NCBI RefSeq assembly: GCF_008642355.1
Contig: NZ_CP029193.1
Location: 6,472,001-6,536,000 of the forward strand
DNA: 64,000 nucleotides
Origin: Streptomyces venezuelae
Lineage (GTDB): Bacteria; Actinomycetota; Actinomycetes; Streptomycetales; Streptomycetaceae
Direction of reading: 5' to 3'
Below the pieces are notes generated by a model that did no database searches, was not told the DNA's origin, and saw nothing but the letters and a program-made list of their open reading frames with translations. A program made the position numbers and the translations under genes. This document shows positions 46,095 through 50,192 of this stretch, piece after piece. Numbering within the stretch: position 1 is the first letter of the stretch; every line of letters starts with the position of its first letter.

Positions 46095-46153
46095 AGTGAG
46101 CGATTCAGAATGTGCTAGCGTCCAGCCTCGTCAGTTCTGAAGCAGTCGCTTCA
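46091..46153 (+). promoter_or_regulatory. MFS promoter flanked by two operator-like palindromes
   Basis: Two related sites, TGAAGTGAGCGATTCA (46092-46107) and TGAAGCAGTCGCTTCA (46138-46153), share TGAA...TTCA arms and flank a possible promoter (-35 TTGAAG 46091-46096, -10 TAGCGT 46116-46121). They suggest binding of a MarR- or TetR-type repressor on both sides. Binding is inferred. Confidence 0.5.
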
Positions 46154-46195
46154 ATACGTGTGCAGAGCACAAGAGCACAAGAAGGGGGCCGCTCC

Positions 46196-47413
46196 ATGCC
46201 GCTCGCGGTGTACGTGGTCGGGCTGGGCATCTTCACCCAAGGAACCTCGGAGTTCATGCTGTCCGGCCTCCTGCCGGGCATGGCCGACGACCTGGGGGTG
46301 TCCATCCCCGCCGCCGGACTGCTCATCTCGGCGTTCGCGGTCGGCATGGTCGTCGGCGCCCCGCTGCTCGCCGTCGCCACCCTCCGGTGGCCGCGGCGCA
46401 CGGCGCTCGTCTCACTGCAGTCGGCCTTCGTCGCGGCGCACGTCGTCGGTGCCCTCGCGCCCGGCTACGCCGTCCTCTTCGTGACCCGCGTGGTCGGCGC
46501 CCTCGCGTACGCCGGGTACTGGGGCGTCGCCGTGGCCACCGCCGTGGCGCTCGTCCCCGCCGACGCCAAGGCGCGGGCGGTCGCCGTGGTCGCGGGCGGG
46601 CTGACGCTCGCCACGATCGTCGGCGTCCCCGCGGGCACGCTGCTCGGCCAGGTCTCCGACTGGCGCGCCGCGTTCTGGGCGGTCGCGGCGGCCACCGCGG
46701 TCAGCGCCGTCTGCACCCTGCTCGCCGTCCCGGGCGGCCGGGACGAGAGCGAGCGGCCCTCCGTCGGGGCCGAACTGCGCGCCATGGCACGGCCGCAGCT
46801 CTGGCTCTCGTACGCCGTGACCGCCTTCGCCTTCGGCGCGGTCATCGTCACCTTCAGCTATCTCGCCGCCCTGCTCACCGAGGTGACCGGGGTACCCGAA
46901 GGGTGGGTACCCGCCGTCCTCGCGCTGTTCGGCGTCGGCGGGATGGCGGGCATCGTCATCGGCGGGCGCACCGGCCAGATGCGCCCCCTCGGCACGCTCG
47001 GCGCGGGGCTCGGCGCCCTCGCCGTCTTCTCCGCGCTGCTCGCGCTGACGGCGCACGTCACGGCCGTGGTGATCACCCTGGTCTTCCTGCTCGGTCTCGC
47101 CGGCTACGTCACCAACCCGGCCCTGCAGTCACGGGTGTTCGCCCTCGCGCCGGGCGCTCCCACGCTGGTCGGCGCGACCAACACGGCCGCGTTCAACGTC
47201 GGCAACACGGTCGCCCCGCTCCTCGGCGGCCTGGCCATCGACGCCGGCCACGGCTACGCCTCGGTGGCCTGGGTCGGCGCCGCGCTGGCCGCCGCGGGCG
47301 CGGCGGGCGTGCTGTGGGCGGCGGCTCTGCGGCGGGGGGAACGGAAGCGGCCGCCGGGGCGCGCGCCGCGTACGGCCGGGGCGGCTCGCGGGACCGCGCG
47401 GGCGGAGGTGTGA
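46196..47413 (+). CDS. MFS efflux transporter (DHA1, Cmx/CmlR-like)
   Basis: Twelve-helix major facilitator protein, 405 residues. The first helix reads VYVVGLGIFTQGTSEFMLSGLLPGMADDLGVSIPAAGLL, typical of DHA1 drug and chloramphenicol exporters. No large soluble insertions; the C-tail is short, Arg/Ala-rich and disordered. ATG at 46196 follows GAAGGGGG. The upstream paired palindromes and a downstream TetR gene suggest drug-inducible efflux. Its stop overlaps an alternative start for the next RidA gene. The substrate is unknown; linkage to the peptide locus 1.2 kb downstream is possible but unproven. Confidence 0.75.
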   Translation: MPLAVYVVGLGIFTQGTSEFMLSGLLPGMADDLGVSIPAAGLLISAFAVGMVVGAPLLAVATLRWPRRTALVSLQSAFVAAHVVGALAPGYAVLFVTRVVGALAYAGYWGVAVATAVALVPADAKARAVAVVAGGLTLATIVGVPAGTLLGQVSDWRAAFWAVAAATAVSAVCTLLAVPGGRDESERPSVGAELRAMARPQLWLSYAVTAFAFGAVIVTFSYLAALLTEVTGVPEGWVPAVLALFGVGGMAGIVIGGRTGQMRPLGTLGAGLGALAVFSALLALTAHVTAVVITLVFLLGLAGYVTNPALQSRVFALAPGAPTLVGATNTAAFNVGNTVAPLLGGLAIDAGHGYASVAWVGAALAAAGAAGVLWAAALRRGERKRPPGRAPRTAGAARGTARAEV

Positions 47414-47421
47414 GCGCCGGC

Positions 47422-47829
47422 ATGCGGGATCCTCGTACGACGCGTGTCCGCGTCACCGCCGACCCCGACTGGTACGAGTCGGCGGACATCTCGCTCGGCA
47501 TCCGCTTCGGCGACCTGGTCTTCACCTCCGGACAGGCCCCGGTGGACGAGCACGGACGCACGGTGGGTGCCGGCGACTTCGACGCGCAGGCGCGCCGGGC
47601 GCTGGCCAACCTGTCGACCGTCCTCACCCACGCGGGCTCCGGCCTGGACCGGCTGGTCAAGCTGACGGTCTTCGTCACGGACATCGCGCACCAGACCGCC
47701 TTCGCGCCGCTCCGTACCGAGTTCTACGGCGACCCTCGCCCCGCGGAGAGCTTCGTCCAGGTCGCCGCCCTCGCTGATCCGGAGTGGCTGATCGAGATCG
47801 AGGCGGTCGGGTCGGTCGAGGAGCGGTGA
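47422..47829 (+). CDS. RidA family protein
   Basis: RidA/YjgF/UK114-type protein of 135 residues, predicted to deaminate reactive enamine/imine intermediates. Signature segments: GDLVFTSGQAPVDEHGRTVG, FDAQARRALANLSTVLTHAGSGLDRLVKLTVFVTD and the C-terminal AALADPEWLIEIEAVGSV. Whether the catalytic Arg is present must be checked; the usual R-P-A-R/S-x-V motif here reads PRPAESFVQVAAL, with E rather than R. ATG at 47422 or the overlapping GTG at 47410 are both possible, and translation is likely coupled to the MFS gene. Confidence 0.7.
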   Translation: MRDPRTTRVRVTADPDWYESADISLGIRFGDLVFTSGQAPVDEHGRTVGAGDFDAQARRALANLSTVLTHAGSGLDRLVKLTVFVTDIAHQTAFAPLRTEFYGDPRPAESFVQVAALADPEWLIEIEAVGSVEER

Positions 47830-47850
47830 TGTGCGGAGACGGTGAGTGAC

Positions 47851-47877
47851 ACGTTTTGTATATGCGTTCCAAAACGT
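47851..47877 (+). promoter_or_regulatory. TetR operator candidate
   Basis: Perfect 8-bp arms ACGTTTTG (47851-47858) and CAAAACGT (47870-47877) around an 11-nt spacer containing TATATG, a possible -10 box (47859-47864). It lies 14 nt before the TetR start, as expected for an autoregulated repressor. Confidence 0.6.
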
Positions 47878-47890
47878 TTACCGTGGGTCC

Positions 47891-48487
47891 ATGGCCAGAC
47901 CCCGGGAGTTCGATGAGGACCGCGTCGTCACCGCGGCCATGGAGACGTTCTGGCGGCACGGGTACGAAGCCACCTCCACGCGCGACCTGTGCGACAGCAC
48001 GGGCCTCGGACCCTCCAGCCTCTACAACACCTTCGGCGGCAAGCGGCAGCTCTACCTCCGCGCTCTGCGGCGCTACCACGACACCGCCACCGAGGAGCAG
48101 GTCGCGATCCTGCGCGGCGACGGGTCCGCCAAGGAGCGGCTCCGCGCCATGATGACGCACGCCGTCGACGCCGACCTCGATGACGCGGACGCGAAGGACG
48201 CGGCGGGTACGCGCGGCTGCTTCGCGATCAACGCCGCCGTCGAGGCCGCCGGGTACGACCCCGAGGTCAGGGAAGCGGTGCGGCGCAGCTTCGACCGGGT
48301 CGAGGACGAACTGTGCGCGGTCGTCGAGGCGGGACGCACCGCGGGGGAGATCCGCGCGACCGGTGACGCCAGGGTCGTGGCCCGCCGGGTCCAGAGCACG
48401 TACTACGGGCTGCGGGTCCTCAGCCGCGTACAGGACGACCGCGAGGTCCTCCTCGCCACGGTGGACGGGGCGCTCGCCGACCTGTGA
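47891..48487 (+). CDS. TetR/AcrR-family transcriptional regulator
   Basis: 198-residue repressor. The N-terminal helix-turn-helix (about 6-55, REFDEDRVVTAAMETFWRHGYEATSTRDLCDSTGLGPSSLYNTFGGKRQLY) is followed by an all-helical ligand domain. It resembles the subgroup with a GCF(A)INAAVEAAGYDP segment, a TetR_C_16-type pocket with a Cys. ATG at 47891 is close to a palindromic operator, and no ribosome-binding site is present. It lies between the MFS-RidA pair and the peptide-P450 pair and could regulate either. Its ligand is unknown. Confidence 0.8.
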   Translation: MARPREFDEDRVVTAAMETFWRHGYEATSTRDLCDSTGLGPSSLYNTFGGKRQLYLRALRRYHDTATEEQVAILRGDGSAKERLRAMMTHAVDADLDDADAKDAAGTRGCFAINAAVEAAGYDPEVREAVRRSFDRVEDELCAVVEAGRTAGEIRATGDARVVARRVQSTYYGLRVLSRVQDDREVLLATVDGALADL

Positions 48488-48583
48488 GGTCGTGCGCGTG
48501 CATGCGGACCGCTGATGCTCCGCTCACGCGGGTCGCGCAGCCGTTTATCGGACGTTGATCGGGCCGGTCGATGCTCCTCGCAG

Positions 48584-48602
48584 GTCCATGTCCCGCATGG
48601 AC
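48584..48602 (+). promoter_or_regulatory. Hairpin upstream of RiPP precursor
   Basis: GTCCATG-TCCCG-CATGGAC, a perfect 7-bp stem with a 5-nt loop, 16 nt before the GGAGG of the precursor gene. It probably lies in the 5' untranslated region. It may stabilise the mRNA; role inferred. Confidence 0.4.
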
Positions 48603-48630
48603 GCCGACGGAAACGACCGGAGGTATGCAC

Positions 48631-48711
48631 ATGAAGGTTGTCCGCTCCCTCAAGAAGAAGATCACCGGCGAGAAGAGCCTGAAGGCGTACGCCTGGTACC
48701 ACTGGTACTAG
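48631..48711 (+). CDS. Atropopeptide-type (tryptorubin-like) RiPP precursor peptide
   Basis: 26-residue peptide, too short for usual gene callers, with GGAGG at 48619-48623 and a 7-nt spacing to ATG. The basic leader begins MKVVRSLKKKITG and the C-terminus is AWYHWY with no further residues. In tryptorubin A the core, from memory, is Ala-Trp-Tyr-Ile-Trp-Tyr, crosslinked by a single P450. Here five of six core residues are identical and position 4 is His. The P450 gene starts 128 nt downstream. The expected product is a rigid aromatic bicyclic or polycyclic hexapeptide. That this gene is translated and modified is inferred from the architecture. Confidence 0.85.
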   Translation: MKVVRSLKKKITGEKSLKAYAWYHWY

Positions 48712-48839
48712 GCCGGCCCAGTCGGTGCCGGGCGGGCTGCCTGTCGCCGACCGCAGGGACGTAATGCGCCGTTGAGGCCCGGGCCCGGCGTGCCGCGAAC
48801 CGGCCGCCGGGCTCGGCCCGCCCGCCCTGGGAGACCCCG

Positions 48840-49892
48840 ATGTCCATTTCCGGCACCGACCGGCTCGCGCGGACCACCGTCTTCACGCCGCGACTCCACG
48901 CCCTGCTGCGCGACCACCGCGGGCAGGACGTGTTCCGCCTGGACGACGACACCGTCGGCGTCGCCGGGCCCGTCCTCACCGACCGGATCCTCGCCGCACG
49001 CCCCGCCACCGAACGCGAACGCCCCACGTTCAAGCCGCTGCACGGCCGCTCCATCCCGCGCACCGAGGCCGCCACCGTCATGCAGGCCATCGGCCGTGAC
49101 GTACGGGCCGCGCTGAAGAAGCCCCTGCCCGGTCGGCTCGACCTCTCCGGCACGTGGCCGCACGTCGGCCACGTGTATCTGCGCGACCTGATCCTCGGCG
49201 CCGACCCGTACCGGCTGCGCATCCTCATGGACCGCACGCTGGAGCTGACGCCCAAGCTGACGTGGACGGTCATCGCGACCGGCGCCGCCCTGCCCGGCAG
49301 GATCCGCCCCGGCGCGCCCGTCACCAGCATCGCGGGCCTCACCGCGAACGCCACGACGTACGGCGACCGCCGCTACGCCATGGGCCTGTACCGGCGCGCC
49401 GCCGCGCCCGTCTGCTTCACCGTCTCCACGCTCGTCGCCAACGCGTACTGGCTCGGGGCACCCTTCGACGACGAGACACCCAACGAGCACATCCTGTACG
49501 AGTCCATGCGGTTGCTCCCGCCGTCCTGGAACATCCTGCGCAACGCGTCCCCCGAGTACACCGCCCTCGACGCGCGCATCGGCACCGGCGACGACGTCCT
49601 GCTCCTGCCCCTGCTCAGCCACCGCGACCCGGAACTCTGGGACGACCCCGACGTGTTCCGCCCCGCCCGCTGGGCCACCCTGGACCCCGACGACCACCCC
49701 GGCTACCTCCCCTTCGGCCACGTCTCCGAACGCTGCTGGGGCCGCCACATGGTGATGCCCCTGGCCGGCATGCTCCTCGACATCCTGCGCGCCGAGGGAA
49801 CGACGGTGGACCCACGCCAGACCACGGCGAAGGTGCCGCTCGCCGGGTTGCTCGGCGTCGACACGGTGCGCCTCGTGAGGGGCGGCTCGTAG
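48840..49892 (+). CDS. Cytochrome P450, RiPP crosslinking (tryptorubin TrpB-like)
   Basis: Short P450 of 350 residues. The K-helix ExxR lies in YESMRLLPPSWNILR, and the heme-thiolate loop reads LPFGHVSERCWGRHMV (FGxxxxxCxG). The I-helix (RAAAPVCFTVSTLVANAYWLG) lacks the usual acid-alcohol pair for oxygen activation, as in several peptide-crosslinking P450s. ATG at 48840 follows GGGAG. Its position immediately after the AWYHWY precursor makes it the likely catalyst of C-C and C-N crosslinks between Trp and Tyr side chains and backbone. The operon closes with a strong hairpin. Confidence 0.85.
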   Translation: MSISGTDRLARTTVFTPRLHALLRDHRGQDVFRLDDDTVGVAGPVLTDRILAARPATERERPTFKPLHGRSIPRTEAATVMQAIGRDVRAALKKPLPGRLDLSGTWPHVGHVYLRDLILGADPYRLRILMDRTLELTPKLTWTVIATGAALPGRIRPGAPVTSIAGLTANATTYGDRRYAMGLYRRAAAPVCFTVSTLVANAYWLGAPFDDETPNEHILYESMRLLPPSWNILRNASPEYTALDARIGTGDDVLLLPLLSHRDPELWDDPDVFRPARWATLDPDDHPGYLPFGHVSERCWGRHMVMPLAGMLLDILRAEGTTVDPRQTTAKVPLAGLLGVDTVRLVRGGS

Positions 49893-49916
49893 GCGAGGTG
49901 TGAGCAACAACCCACC

Positions 49917-49947
49917 GTCGGGCGTCAGTTGTCCACTGGCGCCCGAC
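49917..49947 (+). terminator. Terminator of the peptide-P450 operon
   Basis: 12-bp arms GTCGGGCGTCAG / CTGGCGCCCGAC (one G-U pair) with a 7-nt loop, 24 nt after the P450 stop. It isolates the two-gene RiPP unit from the downstream gene. Confidence 0.75.
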
Positions 49948-50192
49948 CGGCATGACAGGGCATGGTGGGAGTTCGCACGCAGGGAGTGATGAGCATGGCT
50001 GCGAACTACCGGCGCATGAGCGCCCGTTCCCACGGGAAGTGACCCCGGTCGCCGGGGCCGGCCCCGGACGCAGCCCTGTCTCCGACCCGTGTCGGACGCA
50101 TCTCCTCCGTCGGCCTCTCGGCACCCCGGATCCCTGATCGGATGATCGGATCCGTCCTTCACCCGCTCCGGCCTGCCGACGGAGGAACCGCC
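49948..50192 (+). other. Intergenic region with short open frame
   Basis: 245 nt between the RiPP terminator and a small membrane gene. It contains a 15-codon frame ATG 49995-TGA 50042 (start MAANYRRMSARSHGK) with AGGGAG 8 nt upstream, an overlapping ATG at 49989, GC-rich hairpin sequence near 50043-50070, and the pair CGGATCC/GGATCCG at 50127-50133 and 50148-50154. The peptide could be a leader peptide but nothing proves translation. Confidence 0.3.

Follow-up and report, generated by a model that had tools for sequence, protein, structure and literature searches.

A minimal two-gene atropopeptide (tryptorubin-type) locus with the core AWYHWY in Streptomyces venezuelae

Background

The atropopeptide family has been charted in more than 650 clusters (PMC11450843). 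In that paper, atropopeptides are defined by a P450 of the class, a KSLK leader and a Trp at core position 2. The KSLK or related motif is placed at leader residues 17-20 in alignment numbering, and bitryptides are described as an atropopeptide sub-group. In the tryptorubin pattern, one indole is bonded through C3 to the other Trp and through C2 to a backbone nitrogen. Varsorubin B1, the product of one P450, carries the same three bonds by NMR (one C-C and two C-N), and laurentirubin B has these three links plus a fourth, an ether link added by a second P450. The same P450 class also yields the singly linked products scabrirubin and varsorubin B2a, and the P450 phylogeny may not predict product structure (PMC11450843). 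In the biarylitides, aromatic cross-links in a ribosomal peptide are likewise made by a P450, and His can be linked (PMC11450843, PMC12352619); their precursor has five residues and is encoded by an 18-bp gene (PMC13417212).

The closest described system to the locus reported here is the tryptorubin A/B cluster (P450 WP_007820080.1 in PMC11450843), with which it shares two genes, the KSLK leader, an xWYxWY core and the P450 class. The tryptorubin core is AWYIWY and the leader has other residues. The core here is AWYHWY, and the sequence confirms the original prediction that the two differ only at position 4, where Ile is replaced by His.

Results and discussion

Precursor gene

The locus lies in the window, by which we mean the whole 64-kb stretch of DNA that was analysed, and comprises the following features.

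48541..48561, + strand: block CCGTTTATCGGACGTTGATCG upstream of the precursor gene, with a similar block at the same place in six aligned loci
48619..48623, + strand: ribosome-binding site GGAGG, 7 bases before the ATG; CCGGAGGTA is conserved in six aligned loci
48631..48711, + strand: atropopeptide precursor gene, 26 aa, stop codon included; NF038372, 56.6 bits
within 48631..48711, + strand: precursor leader MKVVRSLKKKITGEKSLKAY, then core AWYHWY; probable boundary, by analogy with tryptorubin
48840..49892, + strand: atropopeptide-class cytochrome P450, 350 aa; PF00067 and conserved motifs; 93% identical to the Streptomyces atriruber (L009) P450
49915..49950, + strand: hairpin 3' of the P450 gene, -30 kcal/mol, z -1.89, 5 of 200 shuffles as good

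The six aligned near loci are the window, L009, L010, L011, L072 and L092. The precursor frame reads MKVVRSLKKKITGEKSLKAYAWYHWY*, in agreement with the predicted 26-codon gene with a ribosome-binding site, a basic leader and the core AWYHWY. The start at 48631 is likelier than a second in-frame ATG at 48625, because the latter lies one base past GGAGG and is missing at that place in L009 and L010, though present in L011, L072 and L092. The model NF038372 ("tryptorubin family RiPP precursor") matches residues 1-26 of 26 well above its cut-off of 33 bits, and this precursor is its sole match at E <= 1 in the host genome (8.02 Mb). Among 14 control genomes, matches at E <= 1 were found in four and above the cut-off in none; the precursor match is more than chance.

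The precursor is collinear and free of gaps across the six near loci, and the intergenic DNA carries insertions. Of the 78 coding bases, 12 columns vary (six at third, four at first and two at second codon positions). Pairwise comparison of the six precursors gives 32 nucleotide differences in same-residue codons and 53 in different-residue codons, which alone would not demonstrate purifying selection; the coding status is argued from the family model and the wider set of relatives.

Family membership

An atropopeptide-class P450 adjoins the precursor, 128 bp downstream, and falls in one tree with those of Streptomyces sp. SPB074 (L059) and Amycolatopsis xylanica (L081), the latter a named amyxirubin producer (PMC11450843). 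KSLK occupies precursor residues 15-18 of 26, and its register relative to the core is the same in 87 of 107 distinct loci (a set drawn from the best 80 of 121 loci and a genus search, described below). Trp stands at core position 2, and AWYHWY together with KSLK also fits the bitryptide description of an xWxxWx core with a KSLK leader. The 26-aa precursor does not fit the five-residue biarylitide type. Since the class P450, the KSLK leader and Trp2 are all present, the locus is, as judged from its sequence, a two-gene atropopeptide (tryptorubin-type) RiPP pair; NF038372 points the same way, and the original prediction is borne out on this point.

The P450 and its atypical helix

PF00067 matches residues 218-305 of the P450 with 50.1 bits. 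The predicted ExxR and FG/ERC-W motifs are in place (E221 and R224; F292-G293; E297-R298-C299-W300) and are invariant in 36 aligned sequences. The enzyme had also been described as having an atypical I-helix. This description is right, and the trait is shared by the whole family rather than peculiar to one P450, since the long modelled helix 174-206 lacks the canonical oxygen-activating motif [AG]Gx[DE]T[TS], and Y184, R185, R186, A189, P190 and C192 of this helix are invariant in the same 36 sequences. In the structure model, only eight residues lie between the long helix and the ExxR helix (215-225), and helix J therefore appears to be missing or very short; the helix names are our own assignment.

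The aminopyruvatide P450 model ApyO (NF050147) gave 61.4 bits, below its curated cut-off of 525. Fold searches with the P450 model retrieve P450s generally. The biarylitide enzyme P450Blt, distant from the window P450, was among the Foldseek rows at 15-17% identity and absent among the 50 VIA-align matches listed.

Relatives and variation of the core

Relatives of the P450 were collected from a genome scan, of which the best 80 of 121 loci were taken, and from a genus search of 392 genomes, which yielded 47 places in 46 genomes at E <= 4e-127, counting that of the window itself. Removal of duplicate P450s left 110 rows, three of which are distant P450s serving as the outgroup. The 107 others each have a KSLK-like, Trp-containing short frame no more than 260 bp upstream, a motif that the scan required. 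Across this set of 107 (from the best 80 of 121 loci and the genus search), core position 1 is A in 100, S in 4, V in 2 and T in 1; position 2 is always W; position 3 is Y in 105; position 5 is W in 106; and position 6 is Y in 90, I in 12 and another residue in 5. Position 4 holds I (35), L (30), F (17), G (13), H (10), A (1) or V (1), and is by this comparison the variable core residue of the family. Two cores are odd, namely SWGLYM of Xanthomonas vasicola (L051), without Trp5, and AWALWY of Kutzneria sp. 744 (L088), without Tyr3.

The core AWYHWY itself stands beside 10 of the 107 distinct P450s (the same set), in 7 of the best 80 of 121 named loci and in 6 of the 47 genus places. The uncharacterised loci with an identical core are those of Streptomyces silaceus NRRL B-24166 (L010), L011, L012, L014, L035, L072, L077, L092 and L096, whose P450s are 66-89% identical to the window's. 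L077 differs in having RSFK in place of KSLK and belongs to a distant clade. Leader motifs outside the list that precursors had to match in PMC11450843 occur in six of the 107 loci (L026, L029, L067, L077, L088 and L099; KNLK twice, QSLK twice, TSLK and RSFK), and such clusters could escape the filter described there.

The sister of the window P450 belongs to Streptomyces atriruber NRRL B-24165 (L009), also uncharacterised. It is 93% identical, with a near-identical precursor and collinear surroundings, but its core is AWYIWY, and Ser replaces Ala two residues before the core. On the P450 tree, the minimum number of changes between His and any other residue at position 4 is six, and that of changes of any kind is 23; the tree was built by a quick method with SH-aLRT only, and its root was not inferred, so that these counts do not separate gains from losses. 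That position 4 has been exchanged while the P450 hardly changed indicates that the cross-linking chemistry does not depend on this residue. The tryptorubin locus is more remote, with a P450 69% identical over the best segment in Streptomyces sp. SPB074 (L059), a tryptorubin producer.

NF038372 matches were found in 49 of 394 genomes of the bacterial family and in 7 of the 17 genera sampled. Close relatives of the P450 are also plasmid-borne, in 18 records (16 from Streptomyces clavuligerus and two from Embleya). More distant P450s, 36-40% identical, were found in four genomes (G303, G241, G166 and G358); three served as the outgroup, and the one from G358 was not included. Partial matches in G378, G204 and G253 were left out of the analysis. 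Within 600 bp upstream of the distant P450s L136, L137 and L138 (three Streptomyces genomes) no precursor was recognised, and these enzymes perhaps represent another peptide-linking P450 family.

Flanking DNA and gene neighbourhood

Genes for an MFS transporter, a RidA-like protein and a TetR regulator lie upstream (46112-48487). This DNA can be aligned, at least in part, with that of four near relatives (L009, L010, L011 and L072). In six others (L012-L016 and L035), at 76-80% nucleotide identity, the alignment is confined to the precursor-P450 block, and for this reason these genes are probably neighbours rather than members of a larger cluster. The CCGTTTATCGGACGTTGATCG block, located about 70 bp ahead of the precursor ribosome-binding site, was not evident in the upstream stretches compared from L012, L014, L035, L016, L013 and L077; it is possibly a promoter, or else the operator of the adjoining TetR regulator (47846-48487). 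A terminator had been predicted after the P450 gene. A hairpin is indeed seen at 49915-49950, and a scan for T-tract terminators found none; the hairpin is a possible terminator without a T run. Beyond it, at 49989-50042, there is a tiny open frame, MSMAANYRRMSARSHGK, whose pattern was found in no compared locus except copies of the same window.

No protease was detected by Pfam among the eight nearby proteins scanned. The host genome contains 29 PF00067 stretches, the next of which lies about 17 kb downstream of the P450 gene (G000:C1:6539290). A second copy of the locus in the host genome was sought and none was found, NF038372 matching once. The P450 query gave two matches at E <= 0.001 there (five of 25 first-look candidates were scored); the locus is the only one among the matches listed, and the other match is weaker.

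Predicted product and its mass

The genes, motifs, family membership and conservation are established in the present analysis, and single-P450 chemistry with the loss of four H is established for relatives (PMC11450843). By analogy with these, we infer that the two genes very probably form a minimal atropopeptide cluster, an expressed pair whose product would be an analogue of tryptorubin A or B with His at position 4. In the proposed pathway, the 26-aa precursor would be made on the ribosome and its basic KSLK leader would present the AWYHWY core to the P450. The enzyme would join Trp2 to Trp5 through a C-C bond and to Tyr3 through a C-N bond, and would connect Trp5 by a further C-N bond with a backbone amide nitrogen to give a pyrroloindoline; the side chains of His4 and Tyr6 would stay free. 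A protease encoded elsewhere would then remove the leader and often Ala1 as well. The predicted tryptorubin-type pattern, in which a single P450 forms one C-C and two C-N bonds, matches that of varsorubin B1. The Gln of varsorubin B1, the counterpart of His4, is in no side-chain link (PMC11450843), and ScaB cyclised the ScaA variant I25H (core position 4) and gave a product WPHWY, and it likewise cyclised the other position-25 variants except I25R (PMC12352619).

The hydrogen count of the original prediction needs correction. Its arithmetic was sound (924.3919 for linear AWYHWY and 918.3449 with six H removed), but the choice of six H was not. Three tryptorubin-type links cost only four, because pyrroloindoline formation places bonds at both C2 and C3 of the same indole and thereby removes its double bond. 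The ion of varsorubin B1 (791.3540 in PMC11450843) lies by our calculation 3.997 H below linear WYQWL, and that of laurentirubin B, with its extra link (824.3401 in the same source), 6.00 H below linear WYIWY; the count of four rests on these two compounds and on bond counting. By analogy, the hexapeptide product is expected as C49H48N10O9 with [M+H]+ 921.368, and the Ala-trimmed pentapeptide, not considered previously, as C46H43N9O8 with [M+H]+ 850.331. The proposed target ion near 919.35 would need a fourth link, and a refutation test built on it would miss the expected product, since three links lose four H.

Because the same P450 class also gives singly linked products, the number of links is not readable from sequence. 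The P450 might install the Trp2-Trp5 link only (-2 H), giving monocyclic WYHW, WYHWY or AWYHWY in the manner of scabrirubin or varsorubin B2a, and the P450 SvaB turned a single core into products of both types (PMC11450843). We consider this outcome unlikely. The window P450 is 61-64% to 93% identical to relatives with WYxWY cores, the tryptorubin-type lau and sva cores are carried to three links by the first P450 of their own cluster (PMC11450843), and the single-link enzyme ScaB, which the present tree does not include, has been described as branching earliest (PMC12352619).

Another departure from the three-link product with free side chains would involve His4 itself, with its imidazole bonded by the P450 to a neighbouring aromatic ring, in the way that biarylitide P450s link His, or free and giving a metal-binding atropopeptide. 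If this were true, the AWYHWY loci, including the distant-clade L077, would represent a chemically new sub-type, but we regard it as quite improbable, and a His cross-link in the product as unlikely.

The first proposed mass requires a fourth link (-6 H, m/z 919.352 or 848.315), which is very improbable. Laurentirubin B has such a link (PMC11450843), but there it depends on a second P450 of the cluster, and the 64-kb window contains no other P450. That the locus is decayed or silent and gives no product is hardly credible; a scan for sigma-70-like promoters, which does not cover other promoter types, was empty, but both frames are intact, the catalytic residues of the P450 are conserved, and the precursor stays collinear and gap-free in its five nearest relatives despite the intergenic insertions.

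Conclusions

The locus had been proposed to encode a new product. Our literature search of main texts found no paper on an AWYHWY product (supplementary core lists could already contain this core), and none of the papers containing the letters WYHWY was, judged by title, on peptide natural products; the core recurs in the family. The novelty of the locus is small, a genuine but ordinary addition to a common and already mined family, because that family has been charted, NF038372 has matches in 49 of 394 genomes of the bacterial family, AWYHWY stands beside several other P450s, and His4 is accepted by ScaB. Knowledge of how atropopeptides are made is unchanged by it. What the locus offers is a predicted natural analogue of tryptorubin that bears His, with a corrected target mass by which extract searches can be aimed at the right ions. 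It also supplies a natural pair for testing enzyme tolerance, namely two P450s 93% identical, of which one faces an Ile4 core and the other a His4 core. Solubility, metal binding or bioactivity might be altered by having a basic residue within the rigid bicycle.
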